Under the pieces are notes generated by a model, which saw only the letters and a program-made list of their open reading frames with translations, was not told the origin of the DNA and ran no database searches. The position numbers and the translations under genes were made by a program. Positions 6,884 to 23,624 of a stretch of DNA of 64,000 bases are shown here, in pieces. Within the stretch, counting starts at the first letter, position 1. Each line of letters begins with the position of its first letter. Origin of the DNA: Adlercreutzia muris (GTDB lineage Bacteria; Actinomycetota; Coriobacteriia; Coriobacteriales; Eggerthellaceae). The stretch spans positions 1 to 64,000 of the forward strand of contig NZ_WAJS01000015.1 in NCBI RefSeq assembly GCF_008831045.1, in the 5' to 3' direction.

Positions 6884-7155
6884 TTCCCTTGTCCTCCCTT
6901 AGGTATCGGGGATGTTGCCTCGCGGCGCCTCTTGCCCCGCGATGGCCCCATGGTGGCATGGCGTCGGGGGCGCGAGAAATCGTTGAATCGGGGTATTTGG
7001 GGGGAAGCGGCTCTCGCGGAATTGGGGTAGATACAACTAAACACCAGGTCACAGTTGATTTTGAAAAGATGGCGGAACGGTTACGTCCCCTATCGGAAAC
7101 TTTGGGTATACTAGGCAGCGATCTGCTGCGACGTGAACCGGGGAGGGTTGTGCCG

Positions 7156-8616
7156 TTGCATCTCAGCTCGTCATTCAAATTGGAAACGCTCATGCTGGCG
7201 GCCTTCTTGGTCACCCTGCCCATATACGCGCCGAACCACCTGCTCTTCGAAGCGGGGGTCTACGATGCGGGCGCCTATATGGCCCCTTTCGCTAACACGC
7301 TGCTCGGCGGCTCTGTCGCGGGTGGTATGCTGGCCGCATGGCTCTCCTCCCGAGAGGGCGGCCGTGCGCGGCTGCTCGGAAGCCGGTGGGTGTATGCGGG
7401 GGCGGCGTGCTATCTTGCCGGCTACGGGCTGTTCATTCTGGCGGCTGCCGTTCCCGGTTTCGCGGCGTCGGGCCTGGCCGTGGCCGCTGGTGCGCTCCTT
7501 GCCGCGGGCACGGTGGAGCTGGCCGTGGCGTGGGGCGCCTACATGGCTCAGTACGATTTGCGTCAGGCGCTTCTGTGGGTGGCGGTTATGGTGGGACTTT
7601 CGTCCCTTCTGGAGATGCTGCTAGCCTCGGTGACGTTTGCCGTGGGTCTGCTCGTGTTCTGTGTGCTGCTGCCCCTCAGCTGCTTTCTGCCCTGTTGGAA
7701 GGCGCGCCGAGGCGAATTGGGGGCGTCCCGCGGGGCCGTCGGGGAGGCGGCTGGCTGCAGCCTGGCCCGTGGATTCGCCATCATGGTCCGCCTTCTGGCC
7801 ATGCCCTTTGCGGGGCTCATGGTGTTCGCCTTCCTCATGGGCGCGCGCAGGTTCATCTTGTTCGACGTGGTGCACACGGAGGTGCTCGGCTGCGTGCTGG
7901 GGGCGCTGGTGGTGGTGCCATTGTGCTTCGTGCGCTCGTCGCGGCCGCTTCTGCCCGTCATCTACCGGCTCGCGCTGCCGACCTTCGCGCTGGCGCTCGT
8001 CTTTCTGAACAGCTTTCCCGCGGGCACGCCGCCTCTGTGGTTCGCGGCGTGGCTGACCTATGTGTTCTTTGGCATGCTCGCTATTCTGGCTCTGGCGAGC
8101 CTGGCGGCCCTTGCCCATGGGGGCGAGCTGCCCTGCGGTTTCGTCTACGGCGTGGCTGTGGCCGGCTTCGCCCTGTGCTCCATCGCCGGCGTGGCGGCGG
8201 CGTGGCTGCCTCCCTTCCAGGAGCAGGGCGGAGGTCCGGCGCTTCTGGTGGTGAGCACGCTGTTCTTCGTGGCGCTTATCGGCGATGCGCTGGCGGCGCT
8301 GTGGCGTGCATCGCGGGGTGCGACCTCGCATGACGCGGGGGAGGGAGAAGCCGACGACCTGCCCGGCCGCCCGCCCGCGCCAGTGCCGGCTGCGCGCGAC
8401 GTGGCCGCCCGCTGCGCGCTGCTGGCCGATGGGGCGGCGCTCACCCCGCGCGAGCGGGAGATTCTGGGGTATCTGGGCCGCGGCCACGGCATCGCGTTCA
8501 TTGCGGGAACGCTCGTCATCTCCGAGAGCACGGTGCGCACCCACGTGAAGGCCATCTACCGCAAGGTCGGCGTGAGCTCCCGCGAGGAGCTGCTGGAGCG
8601 GGTGGACGAGGGGTAG
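7156..8616 (+). CDS. LuxR-family regulator with N-terminal membrane domain
   Basis: Second protein of this architecture in the window: about 486 residues, around twelve hydrophobic helices up to residue 390, then a linker and a LuxR helix-turn-helix with LTPREREILGYLGRGHG and STVRTHVKAIYRKVGVSS. The reading frame is open from 6889, but TTG 7156 has a GGGAGGG ribosome site 8 bases upstream and begins just before the first membrane helix; GTG 7150 is the alternative. It is divergent from the Tat flavoprotein gene across about 270 bases, the usual arrangement for this regulator type and its target. Confidence 0.8.
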   Translation: MHLSSSFKLETLMLAAFLVTLPIYAPNHLLFEAGVYDAGAYMAPFANTLLGGSVAGGMLAAWLSSREGGRARLLGSRWVYAGAACYLAGYGLFILAAAVPGFAASGLAVAAGALLAAGTVELAVAWGAYMAQYDLRQALLWVAVMVGLSSLLEMLLASVTFAVGLLVFCVLLPLSCFLPCWKARRGELGASRGAVGEAAGCSLARGFAIMVRLLAMPFAGLMVFAFLMGARRFILFDVVHTEVLGCVLGALVVVPLCFVRSSRPLLPVIYRLALPTFALALVFLNSFPAGTPPLWFAAWLTYVFFGMLAILALASLAALAHGGELPCGFVYGVAVAGFALCSIAGVAAAWLPPFQEQGGGPALLVVSTLFFVALIGDALAALWRASRGATSHDAGEGEADDLPGRPPAPVPAARDVAARCALLADGAALTPREREILGYLGRGHGIAFIAGTLVISESTVRTHVKAIYRKVGVSSREELLERVDEG

Positions 8617-8669
8617 GAGCTGTGATACCATGAACCGCTGTTGTATTCGTGTTTTGAAGGGACGTATCC

Positions 8670-9470
8670 ATGTCAGGGCATTCTAAGTGGGCAACCACCA
8701 AACATCGCAAGGCCGCGCAGGACGCTAAGCGCTCGGCTCTGTTCTCCAAGCTGGCTCGCAACATCACCGTGGCTGCCAAGGAGGGTGGCGACCCGAACCC
8801 CGACAACAACGCGTCGCTGGCCGCTGCCATCGAGAAGGCCAAGGGCTATTCCATGCCCAAGGACAAGATCAAGACCGCTATCGACAAGGCCTTCGGCTCC
8901 GGCAAGGACGCCGCCAGCTACGAGACCGTGGTCTATGAGGGCTACGGCCCGGCCGGCGTGGCCGTGCTCTGCGAGGCCCTGACCGACAACCGCAACCGCA
9001 CCGCTGCCGACGTGCGCGCGGCGTTCTCCCATTCCGGGGGCAACCTGGGCACCTCGGGTTCGGTGGCGTTCCAGTTCGACCGCAAGGGCCAGATCATCGT
9101 GTCCAAGGAAGTGGAGACCGGCGACAAGAAGAACCCGGTGGGCCCCAACGGCGCTGCGGCCGACGAAGAGGAGTTCATGCTGGCCGTGGCCGAGGCCGGC
9201 GGCGACGACTACGAGGACGCCGACGAGGAGTGGATCGTCTACACCGCGCCGAGCGACCTCATGGCCGTGGTGAAGGAGCTGGAGGCCCAGGGCATCCAGG
9301 TGAAGGGTGCTGAGATGACCATGATCGCCGGCACTCCCACCGAGGTGAGCGTGGCCGACGCGAAGAAGGTCATGCGCCTCATCGACAAGCTAGAAGAACT
9401 GGAGGATCTGCAGGCGGTGTACCACACCATGGACATCACCGACGAGATCGCCGAGGCGCTCGACGAGTAA
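8670..9470 (+). CDS. yebC: YebC/PmpR (TACO1) family protein
   Basis: 266 residues, slightly longer than the typical 240-250. The N-terminus MSGHSKWATTKHRKAAQDAKR is diagnostic of the family, as is the GYGPAGVAVLCEALTDN segment (about 90-107). Family members act as DNA-binding regulators or, as shown more recently, as ribosome-associated factors that ease translation of difficult sequences. yebC is commonly followed by ruvC-ruvA-ruvB. Here those genes lie 15 kb away, separated by an accessory island that starts just after this gene. A strong terminator follows. Confidence 0.95.
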   Translation: MSGHSKWATTKHRKAAQDAKRSALFSKLARNITVAAKEGGDPNPDNNASLAAAIEKAKGYSMPKDKIKTAIDKAFGSGKDAASYETVVYEGYGPAGVAVLCEALTDNRNRTAADVRAAFSHSGGNLGTSGSVAFQFDRKGQIIVSKEVETGDKKNPVGPNGAAADEEEFMLAVAEAGGDDYEDADEEWIVYTAPSDLMAVVKELEAQGIQVKGAEMTMIAGTPTEVSVADAKKVMRLIDKLEELEDLQAVYHTMDITDEIAEALDE

Positions 9471-9500
9471 TCGCGCAGCCTCACATAGCGTGCACCTGCA

Positions 9501-9533
9501 AGGGGCGCCGGACTCAGGCTCGGCGCCCCTTTT
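9501..9533 (+). terminator. Intrinsic terminator after yebC
   Basis: Perfect 10-bp stem (9501-9510 with 9521-9530), a 10-base loop and a short T run. Confidence 0.85.
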
Positions 9534-9565
9534 GTCATGCGGGCGGTGGCGGCGCCTCTTCTCAT

Positions 9566-9575
9566 GGGGGGGGGG
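9566..9575. repeat. Homopolymeric tract of 10 G
   Basis: Uninterrupted run of ten G residues in the yebC-SDR intergenic region. Such tracts are slippage-prone. Two similar 9-G tracts occur in the island at 14238-14246 and 16099-16107. Confidence 0.6.
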
Positions 9576-9740
9576 CTGTCAGGGGCAGCTCCCTCGTCGT
9601 GGTGCCTTTCGGGGACGCAGACGCCCCGTGCAACATTCCGGAAACATCGGGGCGGGGAAATCTGGTAGGGTAAAGGCACGTAAACGCGCGGGAGACATGC
9701 TGCCGAGCGCGGTGCCCCGCCATTCGACAAGGGAGGCTCC

Positions 9741-10541
9741 ATGGGTTTTCTCGAAGGTAAGACCGCCATCATCACCGGCGCCGGCTTCGCGGCACTGAAG
9801 GACGGCAGCGCCGGTTCCATCGGCTACGGCATCGCCACGGCCTATGCCAAGGAGGGCGCGAACCTGGTCATCACCGGCCGCAACGTGCAGAAGCTGGAGA
9901 CGGCCAAGGAGAAGCTGGAGGCCGAGTTCGGCATCCAGGTGCTCTGCGTGGCCGCCGACGTGAACGCGGGCGCCGACAACAAAGCGGTGGTGCAGAATGT
10001 GGTGGATTTGGCCATCGAGAAGTTCGGCCGCATCGACGTGCTGGTGAACAACGCTCAGGCCTCCGCTTCCGGCGTTACCCTGGCCGACCACACCACCGAC
10101 CAGTTCGATCTGGCCATCTACTCGGGCCTGTACGCCACCTTCTACTACATGCAGGCGTGCTACCCGCACTTGAAAGAGACGAAGGGCTCGGTCATCAACT
10201 TCGCCAGCGGTGCGGGGCTGTTCGGCAACTTCGGCCAGTGCGCCTACGCGGCGGCCAAGGAGGGCATCCGCGGCCTTACCCGCGTGGCCGCCACCGAGTG
10301 GGGCCCCGACGGCATCAACGTGAACGTGGTGTGCCCGCTGGCCTGGACCGCCGCCCTGGAGAACTTCCAGGAGGCCTACCCCGACGCCTTCGAGGCCAAT
10401 GTGCACATGCCTCCCATGGGCCACTACGGCAACGTGGAGACCGAGATCGGGCGCGTGGTGGTGCAGCTCGCGAACCCCGACTTCAAGTTCATGAGCGGCG
10501 AGACCCTCACCCTGGAAGGCGGCATGGGCCTGCGTCCGTAA
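9741..10541 (+). CDS. Short-chain dehydrogenase/reductase (SDR)
   Basis: 266-residue classical SDR. The nucleotide-binding region is TAIITGAGFAALKDGSAGS (a longer glycine loop than the plain TGxxxGxG), followed by VLVNNAQ. The catalytic Ser lies in INFASGAG and the Tyr-x-x-x-Lys pair in CAYAAAKEG. The C-terminus has NPDFKFMSGETLTLEGG, typical of the family. The substrate is unknown; SDRs of this organism group often act on steroids or other alcohols. The ribosome site is AGGGAGG before ATG 9741. The last 180 bases of this gene recur at 12179 and, more briefly, at 13120, making it the probable insertion point of two downstream cassettes. Confidence 0.9.
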   Translation: MGFLEGKTAIITGAGFAALKDGSAGSIGYGIATAYAKEGANLVITGRNVQKLETAKEKLEAEFGIQVLCVAADVNAGADNKAVVQNVVDLAIEKFGRIDVLVNNAQASASGVTLADHTTDQFDLAIYSGLYATFYYMQACYPHLKETKGSVINFASGAGLFGNFGQCAYAAAKEGIRGLTRVAATEWGPDGINVNVVCPLAWTAALENFQEAYPDAFEANVHMPPMGHYGNVETEIGRVVVQLANPDFKFMSGETLTLEGGMGLRP

Positions 10542-10568
10542 GCGCGCCGCGGAAAACCTGCAGCATCA

Positions 10569-10606
10569 AACCGGCCCGGAAGGTGCGAGCGCCTTCCGGG
10601 CCGGTT
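10569..10606 (+). terminator. Hairpin terminator after the SDR gene
   Basis: Perfect 15-bp stem (10569-10583 with 10592-10606) and an 8-base loop. Only GGCTTT follows, so the T run is weak. Confidence 0.65.
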
Positions 10607-10674
10607 GGCTTTGGGAGGGGCGCGTCGCCGTTGTGCGGATGTCTCGAAGGTTCAGATACTCTTCGGGAGAATTT

Positions 10675-10733
10675 CCCTTATTTCTTCCCTTATTCCCTTA
10701 TTTCTTCCCTTATTCCCTTATTTCTTCCCTTAT
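10675..10733. repeat. Three tandem copies of a 20-bp pyrimidine-rich repeat
   Basis: Unit CCCTTATTTCTTCCCTTATT repeated at 10675, 10695 and 10715 (the last one base short). It lies 30 bases before the AlbA-type gene. The composition (A+T and pyrimidine rich on one strand) is unlike the surrounding GC-rich DNA. Confidence 0.9.
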
Positions 10734-10762
10734 CTTGTATCTATGAAAAGAAAGGGGGAGTG

Positions 10763-12154
10763 GTGGAGCATTCTGTATTCGAGGACATTCTACGGCGAGG
10801 GGAATCTACGACAATCGAGTTCAAGCGTTGCGGCTCAAGGCCGGAGCGGGATTCCCTTGAAACAATTTGCTCTTTTGCCAACAGAAACGGGGGCAGCCTC
10901 TTTCTGGGCGTGACGGATAGCGGGGAAATCCAAGGCATCCCCTACCAAAATCTACTTGAGATAGAGCGCAATCTCATCAACTGCACATGCAACCCCGACT
11001 TGTTCAACATGCCGCCTAGCTTGGAGTTCGAGCAGATAGAGTACGGAGGACAGTGGGTCTTGCGCGTTTGGGTGCCTCCTACCCAGGGAGTGTACCGCTT
11101 TAAAGGACGCGTATACGATAGGCTTGCCGATGCGGATATTGTCTTGAAGGCCGATACTCAGATCGCATCCCTCTATCTGAGGAAGTACTCCATTTTTACC
11201 GAGCAGCACATCTTTCCTCATCTGCGCATCGAGGATTTGGAGCCTGGCCTTATCGACAAGTGCCGGCAGATTGCCTCATCTCGAAGACCGGGTCATCCCT
11301 GGGCCGAAATGGATGACATGGAGCTGCTGCGAAGTGCGCAGCTCTACACGAGGGATATCGAGACGGGCGCCGAAGGCCTCAATCGAGCTGCGGCGCTGCT
11401 TCTCGGGCGCCGCGAAGTGGTACTGGCGGCTTGCCCGGCTTACAAGACGGATGCGGTGTTTCGCGAGCGGCAGGCTGATCGCTATGATGACCGGGAGACC
11501 GTGAGGGATAATCTTGTGACAGCCTACGGAACGTTGCGCGATTTCTGCGCGAAGCATCTTCTCGACCCGTTCTATCTTGAAGGCGACCGGAGGGTGAGCG
11601 TGCGCGATATCGTAGTGAGGGAAATGGTGTCCAACACGCTTATCCATCGTGAGTTCACGAGCCCCTTTCCCGCAAAACTCATTATTGACGAGTCGGGGTT
11701 TCGGACCGAGAACGCGAGTCGAGCCCTCTTCGAGGGGCGCTTGACGTTGTCGGACTTCAACCCCATGCCGAAAAATCCCATCATTGCCAGCTTCTTTACG
11801 CAAATCGGCTATGCCGAAGAACTGGGAAGCGGACTGAGGAACCTGGAGAAGTACTCGAAAGCGCTTCTCGGGGCCGATCCCGTGTTGAGCGAGGGGGATG
11901 TTTTCGTAGCGCAGATTCCGCGGAAGAAGGGCTTGGCCGAGGGAGATCGGGCTTCCGGTGCATTGAAAGAGAATACGCGACTTGCGGTTCTTGCTCTCTT
12001 GGAAGAAAGAGGGGCGCTCTCGGCGGGTGATGTGGCCGCTGAGTTGCACATTACGTCGAAAACTGCAGCGAAGTACCTGAAGGGCCTCGCTTCGGATGGG
12101 CTTGCGGAGACTGATGGAAATGTGAGGACACGGCGATACTTCTGGGCCGGGTAG
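10763..12154 (+). CDS. AlbA_2/Schlafen-type ATP-binding protein with C-terminal winged helix
   Basis: About 463 residues. The N-terminal AlbA_2 (Schlafen-like) domain contains STTIEFKRCG, SFANRNGGSLFLGVTDSG and IQGIP. A GHKL-like ATP-binding segment follows, with VREMVSNTLIHREF as its N-box. The C-terminal 70 residues (NTRLAVLALLEERGALSAGD onward) form a winged helix. Such proteins are annotated as transcriptional regulators and are frequent in defence islands. The start is taken as GTG 10763 (GTG 10760 is possible) after AAAGGGGGAG; the open frame upstream is only the SDR shadow. GC content is visibly lower than in its neighbours and the gene is bounded by SDR 3'-end copies, so it was probably acquired. 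Confidence 0.8.
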   Translation: MEHSVFEDILRRGESTTIEFKRCGSRPERDSLETICSFANRNGGSLFLGVTDSGEIQGIPYQNLLEIERNLINCTCNPDLFNMPPSLEFEQIEYGGQWVLRVWVPPTQGVYRFKGRVYDRLADADIVLKADTQIASLYLRKYSIFTEQHIFPHLRIEDLEPGLIDKCRQIASSRRPGHPWAEMDDMELLRSAQLYTRDIETGAEGLNRAAALLLGRREVVLAACPAYKTDAVFRERQADRYDDRETVRDNLVTAYGTLRDFCAKHLLDPFYLEGDRRVSVRDIVVREMVSNTLIHREFTSPFPAKLIIDESGFRTENASRALFEGRLTLSDFNPMPKNPIIASFFTQIGYAEELGSGLRNLEKYSKALLGADPVLSEGDVFVAQIPRKKGLAEGDRASGALKENTRLAVLALLEERGALSAGDVAAELHITSKTAAKYLKGLASDGLAETDGNVRTRRYFWAG

Positions 12155-12574: not shown

Positions 12575-12610
12575 AGCAGAGCGGTTCGGCTTCGGTCGGG
12601 CCGCTCGCTT
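12575..12610 (+). terminator. Hairpin between antitoxin repeats and toxin gene
   Basis: AAGC-A-GAGCGG (12574-12584) pairs with CCGCTCGCTT (12601-12610) with one bulged A. It sits where type III systems carry an attenuating terminator that keeps RNA antitoxin in excess over toxin mRNA. Confidence 0.65.
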
Positions 12611-12632
12611 GGTACAGGGGGAAGGGGCTGGC

Positions 12633-13118
12633 ATGAAGGAGATGAACTTCTATACGGTTGATCCGGACTACATCGAGGCGCTGCAGGCCGTCGATCCGAA
12701 AGTGCCGAACATCAAATACGAGACGCACGACAAGTTCGCCTGCGGTGTGCTCTTCGAAATTGCGGGCCATGAGTACTTCGCGCCCATATCTTCGTTTAAG
12801 CGCCAGCAGAAGACGAACTTCATCATCAAGAATTCCAAAGGCAAGCTGGTGGGGTGCGTGCGGTTTAGCTTCATGTTTCCCATCCCGAAGGGTCTCCAGG
12901 TGATTAAGGACTTCTCGGCAGAAGATCCGAAGCGCAAGCGACTGCTGATCGAAGAGCTAGCATACTGCAACAAGCATGCGCGACGGATTAAATCCAAGGC
13001 GCTCCACGTGTACCGCACCGCCACGTCTGGAGAGGACGCGCAGATGGCCGCGGTTTGCTGCGATTTCAAGGCTCTAGAGCGCTACGTGCGCGAGCGTTAC
13101 GGAGACGATCGCGGCTAG
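12633..13118 (+). CDS. Type III toxin-antitoxin endoribonuclease, ToxN/AbiQ family
   Basis: Predicted 161 residues, the normal ToxN/AbiQ size. The match runs along the whole chain: FYTVDPDYIEALQAVDPKVP at the N-terminus, then CGVLFEIAGHEYFAPISSFK, where the S-S-x-K group corresponds to the catalytic (T/S)-S-x-K of ToxN, then FMFPIPKG and a C-terminal AVCCDFKALE. ToxN cleaves cellular and phage mRNA and is held inactive by its RNA antitoxin, giving abortive phage defence. The start is ATG 12633 after GGGGGAAGGGG; GTG 12609 would lie in the terminator hairpin. The gene ends right at the third SDR fragment. Confidence 0.85.
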   Translation: MKEMNFYTVDPDYIEALQAVDPKVPNIKYETHDKFACGVLFEIAGHEYFAPISSFKRQQKTNFIIKNSKGKLVGCVRFSFMFPIPKGLQVIKDFSAEDPKRKRLLIEELAYCNKHARRIKSKALHVYRTATSGEDAQMAAVCCDFKALERYVRERYGDDRG

Positions 13119-13210: not shown

Positions 13211-13316
13211 CTCCAGATTGGGAAATTGTTTTCTTGCGCCGCGGTGGCCGCTCGGGCCATCGGGCCGCTCTCGTGTTACACTGGCGGTGAGCATTTGGAG
13301 CGCGAGAGGAGGCGTG

Positions 13317-13688
13317 GTGGAAAACTCGGCAATACGGACGCCCGCTCACCCGGTGGGCATTTCCGATGGGCTGATAGAAGAGTTGGCCTCGGCCATTGCG
13401 GGCCGCGTGCCCGGTGTGCGCGAGCTTATTCTCTTCGGCTCTCGCGCCGACGGCACTTATTCTTCCGACAGCGACTTGGATCTTTTCGTACTCGTCGATG
13501 GGTACGAACGGGATCGTCTCCATACGACCATGGCATGCGCGGCGGCAGCTGCCGCACCGGCGCGACGCCGAGGGCTCAAGCGCGACGTGATCGCAGCGAG
13601 CGTCGGCGATTACCGACAGAGAAGAGCCATGGCGGGGTCGGTGGAGCAAGAAGTGTATCTTAAGGGCGTGACCATCTATGCAGCTTAG
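13317..13688 (+). CDS. MNT-type nucleotidyltransferase (antitoxin of a MNT-HEPN pair)
   Basis: About 123 residues with the minimal nucleotidyltransferase signature LILFGSRADGTYSSDSDLDL, that is G-S-x9-D-x-D. In MNT-HEPN toxin-antitoxin modules this enzyme AMPylates or otherwise inactivates the HEPN RNase. The start is GTG 13317 (GTG 13314 possible) after AGAGGAGG. Its stop overlaps the ATG (13678) of the expected HEPN partner, the usual coupling of these pairs; that partner carries an early stop. Confidence 0.82.
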   Translation: MENSAIRTPAHPVGISDGLIEELASAIAGRVPGVRELILFGSRADGTYSSDSDLDLFVLVDGYERDRLHTTMACAAAAAAPARRRGLKRDVIAASVGDYRQRRAMAGSVEQEVYLKGVTIYAA

Positions 13689-14094
13689 CAATGCGTAAGA
13701 GCTCGTAGCCGCTGCCGAACGTGATGCCCGCGCCTGTTCCGTTCTCATGAACTCCGATCCTGATTATCTCGGTGGCCAGGCGTCTTTCCATGCGCAACAA
13801 CGTGCCGAGAAATATGCCAAAGCAGTTGCCTTGGAGGTTCTGGGAAGCTATGGTCGCACCCATCAGATTGACGATCTTATCGAGGCTGTGGCTCAGGCGA
13901 AGGAAATTGAAGTTCCAGAGGAAATACTTGATCATGCTGCGCAGCTGTCAGCCTATGTCACCATGGCTCGTTATCCTGCGGGTTTCGAGATAAGCGCCGA
14001 GGACGCTCGCGAGGCTATCGCTTATTCCGACGAGGTGGTTGGTTTTCTCGTCGATATCGGATTCGGCAAGATTCTTGGCATGGAGGGCGAATAG
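13678..14094 (+). pseudogene. HEPN-domain protein with in-frame stop at codon 7
   Basis: Reading from ATG 13678, which overlaps the MNT stop, gives a normal HEPN N-terminus (MQLSNA, stop, ELVAAAERDARACSVL) that runs in frame into the open stretch from ATG 13747. The TAA at 13696-13698 interrupts it. The rest has FHAQQRAEKYAKAV, a RTHQIDDLIEAV segment and ARYPAGFEISAEDAREAI, typical of the HEPN family (PF05168-type). Either it is inactivated by a nonsense mutation or translation restarts at ATG 13747 to give 115 residues lacking the first helix. No ribosome site is evident before 13747. Confidence 0.75.
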
Positions 14095-14923: not shown

Positions 14924-16060
14924 ATGTTTTGTCCGAAGTGCGGGAACGAGGTTGCGGAAGGGTCGGCCTTCTGCGGGAAGTGCGGGGCGCCGGTGGGCGG
15001 CCCGGCGGCGGCCGCGGAGACGCCCGGTGCCGCGGCGGCCGGGCTGAAGCCCGCCCCCATGGGGGTGCCCGGGGTGCCGAGTCCGAAGAAGGGCGGCGCG
15101 AAGGTCGGCATCATTGCGGCTGCGGCCGTGGTCGTAGTGGTGCTCGTGGCTGGGTTCGCGACGAACTGGTTCGGGCTGGCGGGCGTGCAGCCGAAGGAGG
15201 CCGTGGACGTACCGGTGGCAAGCCAGAGCGCGAATGATGCGCCAGATGCCGACGGCCAGGACGCTGCGGGCGATCAGGGCGGCGAAGCCGCCACGGTGAA
15301 GTCGGCGGTGGAGGCCTACACGTGGGACGAGCTGGCGCAGATCTCCGATGAGATCGGCGCGGCCGGCGACGAGGCAGCGGCCATCGAGGTCGCGAAGAAG
15401 TACAACCTGTGTACGCCCGAGGGCAAGCTGGACGGCACCCAGGTGAAGCTGGTGACGCTTACCAACAACATGACGGTGCCCGTCCAGATCGTCGGCTTCG
15501 CCCACGACGACAAGACCGCCGGCGGCAAGGCCGGCATCACCTTCATGTTCGGCGATGCCATAGCCGAGGCCCCCATGAATCAGACCGACACCAACGCCGG
15601 CGGCTGGGAGGCCTCGCAGATGCGCGCCTACCTGAACGGCGACGGCATGGCGCTGCTCCCCGAGGATTTAAAGAAGGTCGTTGCTCCCGTGGACAAGCTC
15701 ACCAACAACGTGGGCGAGACCCAGGACGTGTCGGCGGTGACGACCACCTCCGACTCGCTGTGGCTGCTCTCGGCCGCGGAGCTGTGTGGGAGCATCGACT
15801 GGTACAGCGATCCCTCTTACAACGCCGTGCTCAACGCCGAGGGCTTCGAGTATCAGCTCTTTCGCGACACGGCTGTCGATTCCTCTAATGCCAACGACAT
15901 CCTCGTGAAGAACTACCAGAACTCGCCGATCTTCTGGTGGGTGCGTTCTCCGATTCCGCTCTACTCGGACCGCTTCCGGTACGTGGGCTCCGACGGCTAC
16001 CCGGGCTACTACGGCTACGCCAGCTCTTCCCGTGGCGTGGTTCCCGGCTTCTGTCTATAA
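14924..16060 (+). CDS. DGR target: zinc-ribbon, single-pass membrane protein with diversified C-terminal domain
   Basis: 378 residues. A zinc ribbon with Cys 3, 6, 17 and 20 (MFCPKCGNEVAEGSAFCGKC) is followed by an Ala/Pro/Gly linker, one membrane helix (about 61-79) and a large outer domain. The last 200 residues resemble the DUF6273 type: GGWEASQMRAYLNGDG, LWLLSAAELCGS and WWVRSP. Residues 334-377 are encoded by the variable repeat; they are rich in Tyr, Gly and Ser and end in GVVPGFC, with one more residue before the stop. The diversified codons sit at the extreme C-terminus, as in other DGR targets where they form the ligand-binding face of a C-type-lectin fold. The predicted topology is zinc ribbon inside, variable domain outside. 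Confidence 0.85.
   Translation: MFCPKCGNEVAEGSAFCGKCGAPVGGPAAAAETPGAAAAGLKPAPMGVPGVPSPKKGGAKVGIIAAAAVVVVVLVAGFATNWFGLAGVQPKEAVDVPVASQSANDAPDADGQDAAGDQGGEAATVKSAVEAYTWDELAQISDEIGAAGDEAAAIEVAKKYNLCTPEGKLDGTQVKLVTLTNNMTVPVQIVGFAHDDKTAGGKAGITFMFGDAIAEAPMNQTDTNAGGWEASQMRAYLNGDGMALLPEDLKKVVAPVDKLTNNVGETQDVSAVTTTSDSLWLLSAAELCGSIDWYSDPSYNAVLNAEGFEYQLFRDTAVDSSNANDILVKNYQNSPIFWWVRSPIPLYSDRFRYVGSDGYPGYYGYASSSRGVVPGFCL
15923..16054 (+). repeat. DGR variable repeat (VR)
   Basis: 132 bp (44 codons) at the end of the target gene, aligning without gaps to the template repeat at 16657-16788. There are 26 differences, all at positions where the template has A: 12 are A to T and the rest A to G or C. The final 20 bases differ only by one A to C, consistent with the initiation-of-mutagenic-homology end. 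Confidence 0.95.
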
Positions 16061-16078
16061 ACCATCCTGCAATCTAAA

Positions 16079-16103
16079 CCCCCATGCCTATATGGCATGG
16101 GGG
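16079..16103. promoter_or_regulatory. Hairpin 25 bp downstream of the VR
   Basis: Perfect 10-bp inverted repeat (16079-16088 with 16094-16103) and a TATAT loop, embedded in a run of nine G. It is placed like the hairpin/cruciform that other DGRs need just after the VR for efficient homing. It could instead terminate target-gene transcription, though no T run follows. Confidence 0.6.
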
Positions 16104-16123
16104 GGGGACGGAAAGGGCTTGCG

Positions 16124-16609
16124 ATGAGCAACGTACCCCCATCGAAACGCGAACTTTCAAGCGTCGAATACGTGTACAACGCAGCGCGGCTGTACAGTTT
16201 TACCCTGGACTGCGCTATGAAGTTGCCGAAGCGCTGGATGTTCCTGCTGACTGAGCGCACCGTGGATGCGGCGGCTCGGGTGCTCGAGCACGCCAAGGCC
16301 GCCAACAGCATCTACGTCACCTGCGCGGTAGATGCCGACCTGCGGCGGTTTCACCTGAACCAGGCCTACTGCTACGCTCAGGTGCTCGCCAGCTACGTAG
16401 ATGAGATGTTCGAGCGCTTTCCCTCTCGCGAGGACGGCGGCGGCGCGTGTATCTCGCAGGCGAGCTACTTGCGCTGGGTGGAGTCCATCGATCGGGAGTT
16501 CAAGCTCGTGAAGGGCGTGATGGCCTCCGATAAAAAGCGCTTCGGAGGCTACTACGCCAAGGAGAGTGCGGCGGCCGTGTCGGCCCAGCTGGGGCTCTTC
16601 GATACCTGA
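16124..16609 (+). CDS. avd: DGR accessory variability determinant (Avd-like)
   Basis: 161 residues, mostly helical, with many basic and aromatic residues (SVEYVYNAARLYSFTLDCAM, KLPKRWMFLLTERTVDAA, RRFHLNQAYCYAQVLASYVD). This fits the four-helix-bundle Avd family (related to the 23S rRNA intervening-sequence protein), which forms a pentamer, binds the template RNA and partners with the reverse transcriptase. Assignment rests on composition, size and position between VR and TR. The start is ATG 16124 after GAAAGGG; the frame is open a little further upstream. Confidence 0.8.
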   Translation: MSNVPPSKRELSSVEYVYNAARLYSFTLDCAMKLPKRWMFLLTERTVDAAARVLEHAKAANSIYVTCAVDADLRRFHLNQAYCYAQVLASYVDEMFERFPSREDGGGACISQASYLRWVESIDREFKLVKGVMASDKKRFGGYYAKESAAAVSAQLGLFDT

Positions 16610-16656
16610 TTTTTGGGAAATGCCGGCCCAGGCCGGTTTTCCGGGGTGCATCCTGA

Positions 16657-16788
16657 TCGCCGAACAACTGGTGGGAGCGTTCTCCGAATCCGAACAACTC
16701 GGACAACTTCCAGAACGTGAACTCCGACGGCAACCCGAACAACAACGACAACGCCAGCAATTCCAATGGCGTGGTTCCCGGATTCTGT
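16657..16788 (+). ncRNA. DGR template repeat (TR)
   Basis: 132 bp of non-coding template. Read in the target frame it holds 15 AAC/AAT codons, the classic DGR design since adenine mutagenesis of AAY can give up to 15 amino acids and no stop. Its RNA is copied by the reverse transcriptase with errors at A and the cDNA replaces the VR. It lies between avd and the reverse transcriptase gene in the canonical order. Confidence 0.95.
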
Positions 16789-17056
16789 TCATGGACGGCT
16801 CAGTAACCGCCTTGCGGCGAACACGGATGAACGGACAGAAGGAGGAGGCATCCCTTCCGCTGCGGCGGATAAACCATGGGTCCCGACGGCGGTGGGCGAA
16901 CGCTGCTTGCATGGGGGCGCGGCCGTGCCCGAGCGCCCTTTCATGCCCAGCTGCCAGGGGCGGCCTGATACGGCAGGGCCTTCGGTGCCAGGGCTGCCTG
17001 CGGGGCCCTATGAGAACGCTGCCGCCTTCGGGCGGCCAGTCAGATCGAGAGGAGGC
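16789..17056. other. Spacer between TR and reverse transcriptase gene
   Basis: About 270 bases with no gene. In characterised DGRs this region is transcribed with the TR and is needed for cDNA priming, so a structured RNA is expected. Several short GC inverted repeats are present, but none stands out. Confidence 0.4.
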
Positions 17057-18205
17057 ATGGCTTTGAGAAGCGAGGAGCGCCGCGAGCGCCGTTACCGGCG
17101 GCGCCGGATGTCGCGCGAAGCGCGGAGGCGCGATGCCATTTTGGCGGCGGGCGGCTTGGACGCCGCCTTGTCGCTGCGCTCGCTGGTGGATGCCTCGCAT
17201 CATTGTCAGCGAGGGGTTGCCTGGAAGCGCAATGTGCAGGGATTCTGCCTGAACCGCGTGCTGCAGTGCGCCCGCCTGCACCAGATGTGGCTTTCCGGCG
17301 CCTATGCGCCCGGCGAGGCCAAGCGCTTCACGGTGAGCGAGCGAGGCAAAACGCGCTCGATCAGCGCAGTGCCCTTCCGCGACCGCGTGGTGCAGCGAGC
17401 GCTGTGCGATACGGTGCTGGTGCCGCTTGTGCGCCGGACGCTCATCTACGACAACGGCGCGAGCCTGAAGGGGAAGGGGACGTCGTTCTCGCTCGATAGG
17501 CTGGAACGGCACCTGCGGGAGCATTACCGTCGCCATGGCGCGGTCGGGGGTATTTTGCTGTTCGACTTCTCGAAGTTCTTCGAGTCCATAGACGTGAACA
17601 AGCTGGTGGCGATGATGGACGGCGCGTTGGGCTATCCGCCGCTGGTGCGGTTCGTGGAGCTGTTTCTGCGCAGCGAGGAACGCGGCTTGGGCCTGGGCAA
17701 CCAAACCTCCCAGACCGGGGCTATTTTCTACCCCAGCGGCATAGACCATTGGGTGAAGGAGACGTGGCGCGTGCGCGGTTACGGCCGATACATGGACGAC
17801 GGTTACGCTCTGTTCGCCGACTGGGATGAGATGAAGCGGTTCGCCATTGCGTTCCAGAAGCAATGCGCGGCGCTGGGTATTGCGGTGAACCCGCGCAAGT
17901 TCCGTATGGTGCCCGCGACAGCGCCATTCGTGTTTCTGAAGACGCGGTTCCAGCTGGACGAGCGGGGACGGGTGCACCGCCGAGTGTGCGCCGAGGGCCT
18001 CAAACGCGAAAAAAGACGACTGCGGAAGTTTCGGAGCATGATAGGCGAGGGACGCATCAGCTATGGGGATGCAGCGCGATCCTATGCCTCTTGGCGCGGC
18101 ACCCTGGCCCGAGGCGATGCGGCGGGTTTTCTGCAATGCAAGATGGACCGTTACTTCTATGCGGTATTCGGTGTCCCCTGGCGGGAATGCCTGGCATGTC
18201 AGTGA
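17057..18205 (+). CDS. DGR reverse transcriptase
   Basis: 382 residues. After a basic N-terminus come the RT blocks: RFTVSERGKTRSISAVPFRD, FDFSKFFESID with the first catalytic Asp at about 170, GNQTSQTGAIFY (214-225), and the catalytic YMDD at 245-248. The GNxTSQ form replaces the QG motif of other reverse transcriptases and is typical of DGR enzymes. There is no maturase, endonuclease or retron msr-type feature. The start is ATG 17057 after GAGAGGAGG; the frame is open upstream through part of the template region, but nothing supports an earlier start. It copies the TR at 16657 with adenine-specific errors. Confidence 0.92.
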   Translation: MALRSEERRERRYRRRRMSREARRRDAILAAGGLDAALSLRSLVDASHHCQRGVAWKRNVQGFCLNRVLQCARLHQMWLSGAYAPGEAKRFTVSERGKTRSISAVPFRDRVVQRALCDTVLVPLVRRTLIYDNGASLKGKGTSFSLDRLERHLREHYRRHGAVGGILLFDFSKFFESIDVNKLVAMMDGALGYPPLVRFVELFLRSEERGLGLGNQTSQTGAIFYPSGIDHWVKETWRVRGYGRYMDDGYALFADWDEMKRFAIAFQKQCAALGIAVNPRKFRMVPATAPFVFLKTRFQLDERGRVHRRVCAEGLKREKRRLRKFRSMIGEGRISYGDAARSYASWRGTLARGDAAGFLQCKMDRYFYAVFGVPWRECLACQ

Positions 18206-18240
18206 GATAGATGCAAGGATCGAGTAAGGAAAGGATGACC

Positions 18241-18858
18241 ATGGGATTTCTGGACAACGTGACCTCGGCGGTGAACCGGGGGACGGCGGCCGCGGGACGC
18301 GGCGCTGACAAGATCAAGCTGAACGCTCGCATCGGCGAGCTGAACCGCCAGCGACAGAACCTGGCGGCTCAGCTGGGGGCGAGCCTGTACGAGGCCACGC
18401 GGGGCGACGCGGCACTCACGGCCGGTCGCGAGGCGCTCTACGACGGCATCGCCCGCATCGACGCCGAGCGCGAGGAGTGCCAGCGGCAGATTGCGGCCAT
18501 CGACGAGCAGGCCGCGGCTGCGGCGACCGCCGCCACGGGCTTTGCCTGTGCGGTGTGCGGGGCGCACATGACCGGCGCCGACCTGTTCTGCGCCGGCTGC
18601 GGCACCCCGGCCGAGAAAGCCCGGGCCCAGGCGCCCGCCGCGCCGACTCCCGCGCACGCGGCCGGACCTGCGTGCGCGAGCTGCGGGGCGCCGCTCGGCG
18701 CGGGTGATATGTTCTGCATGAGCTGCGGGGCCAAGGTGGCAGCGCTCGCGGTTAGCGCCGGCGCCGGAGTGGGCGCGTCCGAGCTGGTGGAGGCAGCCGG
18801 CGACGGCAACGTGACCGTGACGCCCGGCGGCGAGAGCGCCCCGAAGGGAGGCGAGTAG
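18241..18858 (+). CDS. Double zinc-ribbon protein with N-terminal coiled coil
   Basis: 205 residues. A helical region (about 20-100, with GELNRQRQNLAAQLGASLYE and IDAEREECQRQIAAI) probably forms a coiled coil. Two zinc ribbons follow, CAVCGAHMTGADLFCAGCG and CASCGAPLGAGDMFCMSCG, separated by an Ala/Pro linker. There is no membrane segment. The ribbons are of the same type as those of the four membrane neighbours, so this may be their cytoplasmic partner. The start is taken at ATG 18241 after AAGGAAAGG; ATG 18235 and 18211 are alternatives. It ends 2 bases before the next gene. Confidence 0.7.
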   Translation: MGFLDNVTSAVNRGTAAAGRGADKIKLNARIGELNRQRQNLAAQLGASLYEATRGDAALTAGREALYDGIARIDAEREECQRQIAAIDEQAAAAATAATGFACAVCGAHMTGADLFCAGCGTPAEKARAQAPAAPTPAHAAGPACASCGAPLGAGDMFCMSCGAKVAALAVSAGAGVGASELVEAAGDGNVTVTPGGESAPKGGE

Positions 18859-18860
18859 CC

Positions 18861-19637
18861 ATGTTCTGTCCCCAGTGCGGCAACCAGCTGCCCGACGGCA
18901 GCGCCTTCTGCGGCAAATGCGGCGCCCAGCTCGGTGCGGCGCCGGCTTCTGCCCCCGTTGCGGGCGCGAGGGGGCCGGTTGCGGCGGCGCCCAAAGCCCC
19001 GTCGGCTGCTGGCACGTTCCCTCCTTTGCGCATCGCCGCCGTTGTGGCGGCCGCCGTCGCTCTGGTATTCGCCCTTATGCCGTGGTTCACCACGAGTTCC
19101 GCGGCGGTGACGGCGAGCGGCTACGCCTCGGGCGGCGCCGACCTTCTCGCAGGGCTTACCGGCGCCGATGTGTCGCTGCCCGAGTTCGAGGAGAGTTACT
19201 CGGTGTTCCAGTTCGGCGAGCTGGCGGCCACGGCGACGACCTATCTGGACGCCGAGGCACAGATAGCCGATGCGGTGGAGGCCGCCGATGCCGCGGCGTC
19301 GGGCCGCGCGCGGGCCATTAGCCTCGCCGAGCCCCAGGGGTCGCGTGAACCGGCCGAGGCGCTGCTCGGGGCGATGGTGCGCTGGGCTGCGTCCTGCCTC
19401 GTGGTCGTCGCCGGTGCCGTGTGCGCTCTGGCAACCCGCGGCCGCAACGGCCTGGTGCTGGGCATCGGCGCCGGGCTTCTGGCGGCTGAGGCCTTTGCCT
19501 GGGCCTTCATTTCCTACGGTGTTTTGGAATCGGCGGGCCTGGCCGCCTCGGGCGGCGCAACGAACGCCATCGTGTGCGGCGTGGCCTCCCTTGCCGCTAT
19601 CGTGTGTGTGCTCATTTCCCGCCAGGCGAAGGCATAA
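18861..19637 (+). CDS. Zinc-ribbon protein with four membrane segments
   Basis: 258 residues. Zinc ribbon MFCPQCGNQLPDGSAFCGKC at the N-terminus, an Ala/Pro linker, then hydrophobic helices at about 53-75, 170-190, 195-215 and 225-252. Between the first and second lies an outer loop of about 90 residues (TTSSAAVTASGYASGGADLL onward). I recognise no enzymatic motif. It is tightly packed with its neighbours (2 and 10 bases), so the zinc-ribbon genes probably form one operon. Confidence 0.65.
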   Translation: MFCPQCGNQLPDGSAFCGKCGAQLGAAPASAPVAGARGPVAAAPKAPSAAGTFPPLRIAAVVAAAVALVFALMPWFTTSSAAVTASGYASGGADLLAGLTGADVSLPEFEESYSVFQFGELAATATTYLDAEAQIADAVEAADAAASGRARAISLAEPQGSREPAEALLGAMVRWAASCLVVVAGAVCALATRGRNGLVLGIGAGLLAAEAFAWAFISYGVLESAGLAASGGATNAIVCGVASLAAIVCVLISRQAKA

Positions 19638-19647
19638 GGAGGTGTCC

Positions 19648-21993
19648 GTGTTCTGTGCCAAATGCGGCAACGAGATGCCGGATGGCTCCAAGTTCTGCAC
19701 GAAGTGCGGTGCTGCCTTCGGGGGCGCCGTGACCCCGAAGACTCCGACGGGTGCTGCGGCGCTTAGTTCCGGCGCGCGGCTGTCTCCCCGCAAGGTGAAG
19801 ATGGTCGCAGCCATCGCTGCGGCGACGGTCGCGGTTGTGGGCGCGTCCTTCGCTATCTGGACGGTCTTCTTTGCTCCTTACGACATCGACGAGAGCCGCT
19901 TTCCCGATCCGGTCCTGAGGCAGGCGATCCTGGACCAGGTCGATCCCGATGGCGACGGCAAGGTGGCCCGCGACGAGGCGGCGGCCGTCGAGTCGTTCTC
20001 CGTGGACGGCGCCTCGAGCGTGGCAGGGCTGGGCATCTTCCCCAACCTGAAGGCCCTGGCGCTGTCGGGCGAGGCCCTGCGCTCGGTCGACGTCGCCGAT
20101 TGCACGGCCCTGGAGTCGCTCTCAGCCGAGGGGTGCGTACAGCTGGCCGAGGTGATCTTGGGCGAAAAGCCCGCTCTGCGCGTCTTCTCAGCGCCAAATG
20201 CCGAGATTGCGAGCATCGATCTTTCCCGAGCGCCCGCTCTGGAGACCTTGGACCTGGAGGGAAGTCCCCTGACCGAGCTCGCCTTGGGTGCATGCACCGG
20301 CCTGGCGTCGCTCAACGTGCGGGGAACCGCCCTGACGGCGCTCGATTTGTCAGGTAACGGCGTCCTGTCCGAGCTGCTCGTCGACGATGCCGTGCGGTTG
20401 GATAACCTGGACGCAACGCCCCTGCACGAGCATTGGGCTGTCAGCTCGTTTACGCGAGCGGTTCCCGACCTGGGCGATATCGAGGGCTATGAAGTGCGCG
20501 CCGAGGGCGAGTTCGATGATGCCGGCAGGCTCATCGCCCTTTCCACGTACCAGTACGACCAGGAAGAGCGCTACGAGTACTCCTACGACGAGGCAGGGCG
20601 CCTTGTGGCCATGGAAGACAGCGGGACCAACGGCTCGCCGGCCGTCCACTGGGACGTCTCCTACGACGAGGCGGGGCGCCTGTCCCAGGCATCGTCCGAT
20701 ATGGGCGACAGGTACACGGTGGGCTACGGCGCCAACGGGCTGCCCGAGACGTGCCGGGCGGTGGTAGGCCAGGGAGGCGCGAGCACGCTCGTCTTCTCGT
20801 ACGACACTGACGGCCGCCTTGCCTCGTGGAGCCACCGCTACGAGGGCGGCAATGATTCCGTGCTGGTCGTCGCTTACGGGGATGATGGGCGTATATCGTC
20901 GGTATCGAGCCCTGACGCCGGCTCCTTTGAAGCGAAGGCCTATGGCGTGGAGCGCAATGGCGACGGCGAGCCGGTTCGGGTGTCGTACCGCTGGGGGCAC
21001 TACGGCTCCTATGCGCAGACGATGTCCTATGCCGACTCCGGTGCGCTGTCCGATGCGGTCCGCGATGTCGAGGCGAACACGGGCGTCATGCGCTGGAGCT
21101 TTCCGACCGTCTCCTCCACGTCGTTCGAGTACGACGACCGAGGCCGCTTGGTGAAGTGGCAGCCGCAATACGGGGACACGGCAAGCGACGGGGCTGCGAA
21201 GTCGGGGGAGTGCACGTTGTCCTACAAGCGGTTCGTCACCCTGGAGGAGGACTACGACGCGCCGCGTTTCGCGCAGATCGACAATATCCTGTCCGCCTGC
21301 CTCGATCCGTACTTCTGGAACCCCTTCCGCGCGTTCGCGGAGGATCGGGCCGACTCCCAGCTGATTTACGGCGGCGTCCCGGCTGCCTTCGAGGTTGCGG
21401 ATGGGGGCGCGACGGCTGCAGCTGGCGAAACGTCGGCGAAGGGCCAGAGCGGCGCTTCTCCCGAGGCCGAGCGCGGCTCTTCCGAGGGCGGGCAGGCTGA
21501 TGAGGCGGAGACCCAGCCCGAGGCTGCGGTTCCCGAGGAGGCCGTCGAGCCCGTGGCCTTCAAGGGCATCACATCGGCCGAGGCGAGCAGCGCGCTGCCT
21601 GTGGACGAGGTAAACACGAGCGGCTACGATGCGTCGAATGTTCTCGACGGCGACTTGAAGAGCGCTTGGGTCGAGGGCGTTTCCGGGTCGGGTCTGAACG
21701 AGTGGATTTCCCTCTCGGGTGGCGGTGAGCAGGGGTTCAGCGGCTTCACCATTTGGAGCGGGTATCAGAAGTCCGACCGCCACTACGAGATGAACGCGCG
21801 CCCGTCGCGTGTCGGCGTGTACGTCGATGGGGAGCTTGTGGGTCGCTTCGACCTTGAGGACGCCGGGCTGACCTCCCAGCGTATCGACTTCGGCAGCACC
21901 TATCCCGGCAGCGAACTGCGGATAGCGGTGGAGAGCGCGTATCCCGGCTCGAAGTACGAGGACTGCGCCATTTCCGAGATCGAAGTGTTCTAA
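19648..21993 (+). CDS. Zinc-ribbon membrane protein with LRR, YD-like repeats and C-terminal carbohydrate-binding-type domain
   Basis: 781 residues from GTG 19648 (AAGGAGG ribosome site). Order: zinc ribbon (CAKCGNEMPDGSKFCTKCG), membrane helix (about 52-72), a leucine-rich-repeat-like region (about 120-250: FPNLKALALSGEALRSVDV, ALETLDLEGSPLTELALG), YD/RHS-like repeats (YSYDEAGRLVAMED, VSYDEAGRLSQASS, FSYDTDGRLASWSH), an acidic Ser/Glu linker (about 585-640) and a final beta-rich domain with SNVLDGDLKSAWVEG and FSGFTIWSGY. The last resembles discoidin/NADase-type glycan-binding domains. The likely role is surface binding, with the outer part exposed. The first 75 bases are nearly identical to the next gene's. 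Confidence 0.7.
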   Translation: MFCAKCGNEMPDGSKFCTKCGAAFGGAVTPKTPTGAAALSSGARLSPRKVKMVAAIAAATVAVVGASFAIWTVFFAPYDIDESRFPDPVLRQAILDQVDPDGDGKVARDEAAAVESFSVDGASSVAGLGIFPNLKALALSGEALRSVDVADCTALESLSAEGCVQLAEVILGEKPALRVFSAPNAEIASIDLSRAPALETLDLEGSPLTELALGACTGLASLNVRGTALTALDLSGNGVLSELLVDDAVRLDNLDATPLHEHWAVSSFTRAVPDLGDIEGYEVRAEGEFDDAGRLIALSTYQYDQEERYEYSYDEAGRLVAMEDSGTNGSPAVHWDVSYDEAGRLSQASSDMGDRYTVGYGANGLPETCRAVVGQGGASTLVFSYDTDGRLASWSHRYEGGNDSVLVVAYGDDGRISSVSSPDAGSFEAKAYGVERNGDGEPVRVSYRWGHYGSYAQTMSYADSGALSDAVRDVEANTGVMRWSFPTVSSTSFEYDDRGRLVKWQPQYGDTASDGAAKSGECTLSYKRFVTLEEDYDAPRFAQIDNILSACLDPYFWNPFRAFAEDRADSQLIYGGVPAAFEVADGGATAAAGETSAKGQSGASPEAERGSSEGGQADEAETQPEAAVPEEAVEPVAFKGITSAEASSALPVDEVNTSGYDASNVLDGDLKSAWVEGVSGSGLNEWISLSGGGEQGFSGFTIWSGYQKSDRHYEMNARPSRVGVYVDGELVGRFDLEDAGLTSQRIDFGSTYPGSELRIAVESAYPGSKYEDCAISEIEVF

Positions 21994-22004
21994 GGAGATA
22001 CTAC

Positions 22005-23624
22005 ATGTTCTGTACCAAATGCGGCAATGAGATGCCGGATGGTTCCAAGTTCTGCACGAAGTGCGGTGCTGCCTTCGGGGGCGCCGCAACACCGGAGGCT
22101 CCGACGGCCGCCGGCAGCGCGTCTGGCCAGGGTGTTCCTGCTGCCGGCGCGCCCGAGGCTGCGGTGACGCCCAAGAAGAAGCGCGGGGCGCTCGTAGCGG
22201 GCATAGCCGCGTCGGCGGTGGTGGCGCTGGCGGCGGTGGGCATCGCCGTGGCGAACCCCTTCGCGGCACCGGAACCCGCGCCTGAGCCCGCGTCCGCGCC
22301 GGTCGAGGAGCCAGCCGCCGAGCCCGAGGCGGCCGATCCCGAGCCCAAGGGGGCTGTCGACGCCGAGCCCGCAGCCGCGTCGGAGCCGGCGGTGCCGGCG
22401 CTTCCCGCGGTGTGGTTCGGCGCCCATGCTAGCGACGGCTTCTCCCTGGTGAACGAGTACGGCAACGTCACGGTGCCGGCGGTTTCCGATGCCGTGCTTA
22501 AGACGCCCTTCGCGGGTGGCTTCTCGCTGGGCATCTGGGAGACGAGCGAGTACGACGCCGAGTGGGACGCCGTGCACGACGAGCAGACCCATTACGCGCT
22601 CTTCGACAGCACCGGCGCGGCGGCGGTGGACCTCGATCCCGTTCTGGCGGCAGCCGGCATCACGGGGCAGTCCAGCGTGTCGGGCGACGTGACCTCCTAT
22701 GCTGACGGTCGCCTCGTTCTGACGGTGATCGCCCAGGAGGCCGGCCAGAGCAACGTGTTCTTGGTGCTTAACGAGCAGGGCGGCCTTGCGTTCGAGCTGG
22801 GGAAGGCGGCGGAGGGCCCGCTTTCGGGGTGGCCCGCGGCCGACGCCTTCCACGACGGGGTGCTGCTGGCCCGCGCGGGCCACGGCGAGGAGTACCTTCT
22901 GGACGGGAGCGGCAACGTGCTCGCTTCGAGTCAGGAGGCAGGCGCCCCGATCGTCTCCCTCGGCTACGGGTACTACCGCAAGGACGCCCCGGACGACCAG
23001 AAGGTCTACGGCTACGACGGCCAGCCGCTGTTCGACGCTGCCAGCGTGAACGAGGGCGACATCATTGGCGGGGAGCTGGACTACGACCAGCCCGGCGGCA
23101 GTGGCATCGTGCAGGTGTCCGCCGAGCGCCAGAACCCCTATGGCGGCGCCAACAAGTCTCTGGCCGGCCTGTACTCGGTGGGCGCCGGCGCGTGGATCGT
23201 GCCGCTGGGCGAGGGGCTGGACGCCTTCAGCGATGCAAACGACGGCATGCTGTGGGTGCGCACGGCGGGCCCGATCGGTTCTGCGGCCAGCGGGGACGGC
23301 GCGGCCGCTGCGACGAGCGGGGACGGCGCCGCTGCGGCTGGCGGGGATGCCGCCGGCGCATCCGGCGGCGACGCGGCGCTCCGGTCGGCTATCGTGAGCG
23401 CTTCGGGAGAGGTGGTTTTCGACGCCTCCATGGCCGATGCCGCGCTGACCATCCCCGAGGACTTCCGCGCCTGCTACCTCCACGACGGGTGGTGGGGCAT
23501 CTGCAATGACACCACCTCGGCGCCCTATGCGCTGGTGTGCATCCAGGACGGGAAGTTCCTCGGCGCCATCGACGCGCCTGCGAATCTGGCCAACTATCCC
23601 AACTCGGGCATGTACAACGTGTAG
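22005..23624 (+). CDS. Zinc-ribbon single-pass membrane protein with large outer domain
   Basis: 539 residues. Zinc ribbon CTKCGNEMPDGSKFCTKCG, linker, membrane helix (about 64-85), a Pro/Glu/Ala-rich stalk (PEPAPEPASAPVEEPAAEPE) and an outer domain of about 400 residues of beta-type sequence with GYDGQPLF and related turns like WG or propeller repeats. An Ala/Gly/Ser low-complexity insert (about 425-450) carries imperfect repeats of SGDGAAAA type. The N-terminal coding block matches the upstream gene almost base for base while the rest is unrelated, showing exchange of the anchor module. Function not recognised. Confidence 0.65.
   Translation: MFCTKCGNEMPDGSKFCTKCGAAFGGAATPEAPTAAGSASGQGVPAAGAPEAAVTPKKKRGALVAGIAASAVVALAAVGIAVANPFAAPEPAPEPASAPVEEPAAEPEAADPEPKGAVDAEPAAASEPAVPALPAVWFGAHASDGFSLVNEYGNVTVPAVSDAVLKTPFAGGFSLGIWETSEYDAEWDAVHDEQTHYALFDSTGAAAVDLDPVLAAAGITGQSSVSGDVTSYADGRLVLTVIAQEAGQSNVFLVLNEQGGLAFELGKAAEGPLSGWPAADAFHDGVLLARAGHGEEYLLDGSGNVLASSQEAGAPIVSLGYGYYRKDAPDDQKVYGYDGQPLFDAASVNEGDIIGGELDYDQPGGSGIVQVSAERQNPYGGANKSLAGLYSVGAGAWIVPLGEGLDAFSDANDGMLWVRTAGPIGSAASGDGAAAATSGDGAAAAGGDAAGASGGDAALRSAIVSASGEVVFDASMADAALTIPEDFRACYLHDGWWGICNDTTSAPYALVCIQDGKFLGAIDAPANLANYPNSGMYNV

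Follow-up and report, generated by a model that had tools for sequence, protein, structure and literature searches.

The window, the 64,000-nucleotide stretch analyzed here, almost certainly contains a complete diversity-generating retroelement (DGR) that would diversify a chromosomal, membrane-anchored protein with a C-type-lectin-like domain. The cassette has the canonical order of target, Avd, template repeat (TR) and reverse transcriptase (RT), as an earlier note on this DNA had described with exact coordinates, and all of its reading frames are intact (Table 1). The nearest named genome is that of Adlercreutzia mucosicola, in line with the earlier placement in an actinobacterium.

Table 1. 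Features of the DGR cassette in the window and of the second DGR in the same genome
Feature	Position	Strand	Remarks
Target gene, 378 aa	14924-16060	+	Zinc ribbon aa 2-24; hydrophobic span aa 61-79; DUF6273 aa 215-378
Variable repeat (VR)	15923-16054	+	Target's last 44 codons but one; matches TR, differing only at TR adenines
Target-site hairpin	16079-16103	+	Perfectly paired GC-rich stem of 10 bp with TATAT as its 5-nt loop; 24 nt downstream of VR
Avd-like accessory protein, 161 aa	16124-16609	+	Four-helix model, pLDDT 82; 4dwl Z 13.5, 8ub7_C Z 14.1
Template repeat (TR)	16657-16788	+	Identical in A. mucosicola
Rfam RT-2 RNA (RF03077), probable spacer part of the DGR RNA	16789-17028	+	Full-length match 1-222/222, 69.2 bits, E 8.2e-15
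DGR reverse transcriptase, 382 aa	17057-18205	+	Motifs LGNQTSQ and YMDD; 8ub7_A E 1.2e-21; phrog_1423 2e-68; tree
Prophage DGR (L025; G000:C2:152000-168000)	RT 6849-8045, TR 8163-8293, Avd 8319-8726, target 8790-9701	-	

Cassette proteins and the target

The only solved relative of the RT at E < 1e-3 is the DGR RT of Bordetella phage BPP-1 (8ub7), and motif 4 reads SQ rather than SP. In a tree that compared it with the RTs of other DGRs, of BPP-1 and of group II introns, with retrons left out, the RT lies outside the 100/100 group II intron clade; the nearest relative sampled after A. mucosicola comes from G129, also an Eggerthellaceae genome. Both results agree with the DGR type that had been read from its GNxTSQ and YMDD motifs. 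The Pfam search gave no match for the 161-aa protein, and its modeled four-helix fold resembles those of the S23 family and of Bordetella Avd, as expected of the Avd-like gene proposed earlier. Since unrelated helical bundles reach Z 13.2 against the same model, the assignment as a predicted Avd leans also on the position of the gene and on a relative at another locus (L005) that weakly matches bAvd (E 0.003, below the cut-off).

The target was recognized as a zinc-ribbon, single-pass protein with a DUF6273-like outer domain from the letters alone, and the Pfam matches (PF13240 and PF19789) and a single strong hydrophobic span in the hydropathy profile bear this out. The fold prediction that had been proposed as a check matches the modeled DUF6273 domain to a domain of 9qa6 (Z 10.1) that its authors call C-type-lectin-like (PMC12237041), and a C-lec assignment of DUF6273 in phage DGR targets had been published before (PMC10743442). 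Confidence in the target model is middling (pLDDT 68, lower across VR); on this model VR sits in the C-type-lectin-like domain. The "surface receptor" of the earlier note thus has the topology and the fold on its side, and surface exposure and ligand binding are suggested by them: from the topology, the VR face would lie outside the cell and may bind something variable, such as a phage, a neighboring cell or host material.

The element is like the BPP-1 DGR (mtd-avd-TR-brt) in its gene order, its adenine-specific TR/VR pair, the folds of RT and Avd, the hairpin after VR and a structured RNA between TR and RT, which is RF03022 (Phage_DGR) in the corresponding TR-brt interval of BPP-1 and RF03077 in the window. 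It differs in that BPP-1 is a phage element with a tail receptor-binding target, whereas the target here is a chromosomal zinc-ribbon membrane protein, and the two RTs are 27% identical. The hairpin, which we regard as the counterpart of the BPP-1 hairpin/cruciform, falls within the published range of 4 to 34 bp from VR, but its TATAT loop is unlike the 4-nt GRNA loops of phage DGRs (PMC3240598).

By analogy with the BPP-1 model, from which we infer the biochemical steps, an RNA comprising TR and the RT-2 spacer would be copied by an RT-Avd complex with misincorporation opposite adenines, and the mutated cDNA would then replace VR, with the 3' end common to VR and TR (the IMH) and the hairpin as guides. 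The C-terminal tip would vary at some 20 residues with no loss of the fold.

Adenine-specific differences and comparison with A. mucosicola

TR and VR align over 132 bp without gaps and differ at 26 sites, each a TR adenine, which reproduces the earlier alignment; 26 of the 37 TR adenines are altered, and none of the other 95 bases (hypergeometric P = 3.5e-19). There are 15 AAY codons within TR in the target frame, the same number as counted before, and an adenine change in such a codon could not give a stop. The change at TR position 127, A to C (GGA to GGC), is common to A. mucosicola and every homologue compared without gaps, and it is probably a fixed difference between IMH and IMH* rather than a product of mutagenesis. 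With that position set aside as IMH/IMH*, 25 informative changes remain, so the mutational fingerprint claimed earlier stands with one site fewer. No further copies of TR or VR were found elsewhere in the genome assembly.

Only two genomes carry this cassette, that of the window and A. mucosicola DSM 19490 (L004), where TR and spacer are 100% identical and the RT is 99.9% identical to those of the window. The A. mucosicola VR differs from its own TR by 22 changes, 22/22 at adenines, and from the window VR at 21 sites, 21/21 at TR adenines; both VRs equal TR at 95/95 non-adenine sites. Over positions 15751 to 16000, by comparison, 75 of 247 sites differ between the two species, at most 21 of them within VR. 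The identity of the non-adenine VR backbone despite diverged upstream DNA argues that VR was rewritten from TR in both lineages. Such rewriting from a shared TR explains the pattern and ordinary divergence does not. These two genomes, read at the level of sequence, support a genuine DGR that appears to have been active recently, as measured against ordinary divergence. Of the "active or recently active" DGR of the earlier note, recent activity is thereby supported, by variation of the expected kind in a sister species. Neither outcome that the earlier note named as refuting its reading was observed: VR variation is adenine-biased, and the RT stands apart from the group II introns in the tree.

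It could be argued instead that the DGR is intact but silent today and that the VR differences are old or were swapped along with a diverged target allele. The target body is indeed a mosaic between the two species, and identical runs at 16162-18199 and 9999-11972 show regional recombination. Against this, the reading frames are all intact, and both VRs keep the shared TR sequence at every non-adenine site beside strongly diverged upstream DNA, a match that points to recent copying of both from TR. We consider a silent DGR unlikely and retain recent rewriting in both lineages as the preferred reading.

The window and A. mucosicola differ greatly in the target body just upstream of VR (15501-15922), where the window allele resembles a paralogue on A. 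mucosicola contig C3 (L074); this suggests allele exchange between target paralogues. The identity of the cassettes was considered as special proof of transfer and rejected because another identical run, of 1974 bp, lies nearby at 9999-11972; the recombination or close kinship of the two genomes is regional.

Chromosomal setting and traces of the cassette in relatives

The identified neighbors of the locus, whose flanking genes are annotated in part, are cellular: they encode ToxN-like and HEPN/nucleotidyltransferase proteins and further zinc-ribbon membrane proteins, with YebC and RuvA/RuvC farther away by inspection. None of the identified neighbors is a phage structural gene, and the target and the downstream zinc-ribbon genes are syntenic in genomes of the same genus that lack Avd-TR-RT. 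On the basis of these neighbors and this synteny, the locus is chromosomal and outside any recognizable prophage.

That the element is a prophage or phage remnant with a virion protein as its target might be entertained, given that many of the closest RTs are on phage or prophage contigs and that the other DGR of this genome sits in a prophage, but with cellular neighbors, a target syntenic in cassette-free relatives and a hydrophobic span in the target itself, we find it hardly credible; no viral contigs were found with the same Avd, target family or TR pattern. A different history is one of gain, in which the lineage that includes the window and A. mucosicola acquired Avd-TR-RT next to a target that was already present and static, and the relatives never lost it. 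Many Eggerthellaceae genomes carry the target family, most of them with no DGR at the locus, and the DUF6273 zinc-ribbon family reaches far wider than the cassette, as gain would have it. Remnants in the relatives speak against it. G058, from a different genus, still has, after the target, a perfect hairpin together with Avd codons 1 to 54 (81% identity; z 21.7 against shuffles). G004 retains an imperfect hairpin along with the avd start (z 13.4) and G001 the avd start (z 9.5), and for the avd ribosome-binding and start region of these two genomes 0/500 shuffles score as high. Furthermore, most differences between the window TR and the VR regions of G058 and G004 fall on adenine sites (Fisher 3.5e-9 and 4.1e-8, respectively). 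Gain therefore seems to us improbable, and the scars are most simply explained if the cassette disappeared and the target stayed: at least three relatives (G058, G004 and G001) appear, from alignment, to have lost Avd-TR-RT and kept the target with its last VR allele. Weaker avd traces occur in G032 and G117 (z 3.9 and 4.9), and in six other target homologues the shuffle-tested alignment revealed no scar.

We lean toward a composite picture in which the DGR of this family is a transient diversifier, varying a zinc-ribbon membrane receptor until deletion of the cassette leaves a single VR allele behind, as would have happened independently on several occasions, and in which, as a separate matter, RT-2 forms the spacer section of the DGR template RNA. 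In related species the last step would be deletion of Avd-TR-RT with the final VR allele retained.

The A. mucosicola C3 paralogue was considered as a frozen target and rejected, having no scar (z 0.0) and a weak adenine bias (P 0.05). An argument for frozen VRs from retention of third bases was likewise set aside as weak, with 9-10/15 kept in scar-free and 12-13/15 in scarred homologues.

Just upstream of the DGR are a gene of the ToxN family (type III toxin-antitoxin) and a nucleotidyltransferase/HEPN pair, at 12609-13118 and 13218-14094 of the window. After the DGR, a run of zinc-ribbon proteins with near-identical N-termini extends over 18229-23624, one of them with leucine-rich-like, RHS-like and NADase-translocation F5/8 domains.

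The RT-2 RNA and other retroelements

The RF03077 match begins at the first base after TR and, at 69 bits against a gathering score of 40, is the weakest match above that score in a search of the class (298 genomes), which gave 18 RT-2 matches in 15 genomes, the window included and one of them below the gathering score. A DGR-type RT is directly downstream in 18/18. In 16 of the 17 matches besides the window, the end of an adenine-specific TR falls somewhere from 12 nt ahead of the RT-2 start to 2 nt within RT-2; the remaining one, in G057, has a noisier TR/VR pair (97/104 non-adenine sites). The family also matched at seven other examined loci, six of which had a TR/VR pair in our scans. RT-2, always beside a DGR-type RT and nearly always at the end of a TR, is thus best read as the spacer part of the DGR RNA. 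Our literature search found no link between RT-2 and DGRs, and the link may have been published earlier. It would provide an RNA-based handle on a part of the DGR that protein searches miss and, if true, make the RT-2 family a marker for finding DGRs. RT-2 was seen between TR and RT across Coriobacteriia and on one viral contig (in the window and at L004, L005, L025-L028, L079 and L124-L140).

DGRs in Eggerthellaceae are already known from prophages of Eggerthella lenta, where activity was observed after growth in a chemostat (PMC8778435), and membrane-anchored cellular targets are known generally, as the main text of a global survey indicates (PMC8144416). The E. lenta elements (PMC8778435) come from the same bacterial family and have the same target-avd-TR-RT order, but they lie in prophages and have a putative virion target; their nearer counterpart is the prophage DGR of the present genome, which is accompanied by tape-measure and tail genes. 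The gut-phage DUF6273 targets, including tentaclins, likewise display VR on the surface of a DUF6273 C-type-lectin fold; they are phage proteins for which no zinc ribbon or membrane span is described (PMC10743442, PMC11792537). With the cellular membrane-bound targets in the main text of the survey, the window target shares an N-terminal membrane segment and a C-terminal VR domain; that main text had no match for Actinobacteria or Coriobacteria (PMC8144416). We found no published account of such a zinc-ribbon protein as a DGR target. The interest for specialists lies in this target, the comparison of two species, the scars of loss and the RT-2 assignment. One template with differently rewritten VRs in two species offers a natural comparison for a cellular DGR of a gut actinobacterium and, together with the apparent deletions, opens to testing the questions of what is varied by DGRs, what maintains them and what follows once they are gone.

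The third RT of the genome is a DRT4-type defense RT on the minus strand of contig G000:C59 (L003, 385-2208; PADLOC E 2.8e-170). In G129 (L076, L097-L108), one chromosomal DGR has as its target a leucine-rich-repeat and DUF6273 protein of about 1040 aa, and about a dozen homologues of this target are spread over the contigs, several of them with the same CTGCCGGGG...CCCCGGCAG hairpin downstream. A role of the 12 other DUF6273 proteins of G129 as current targets of its DGR is not supported, since only the local VR fits its TR closely (105/106 non-adenine sites, against 49-81/106 for the others); they are perhaps former or occasional targets.
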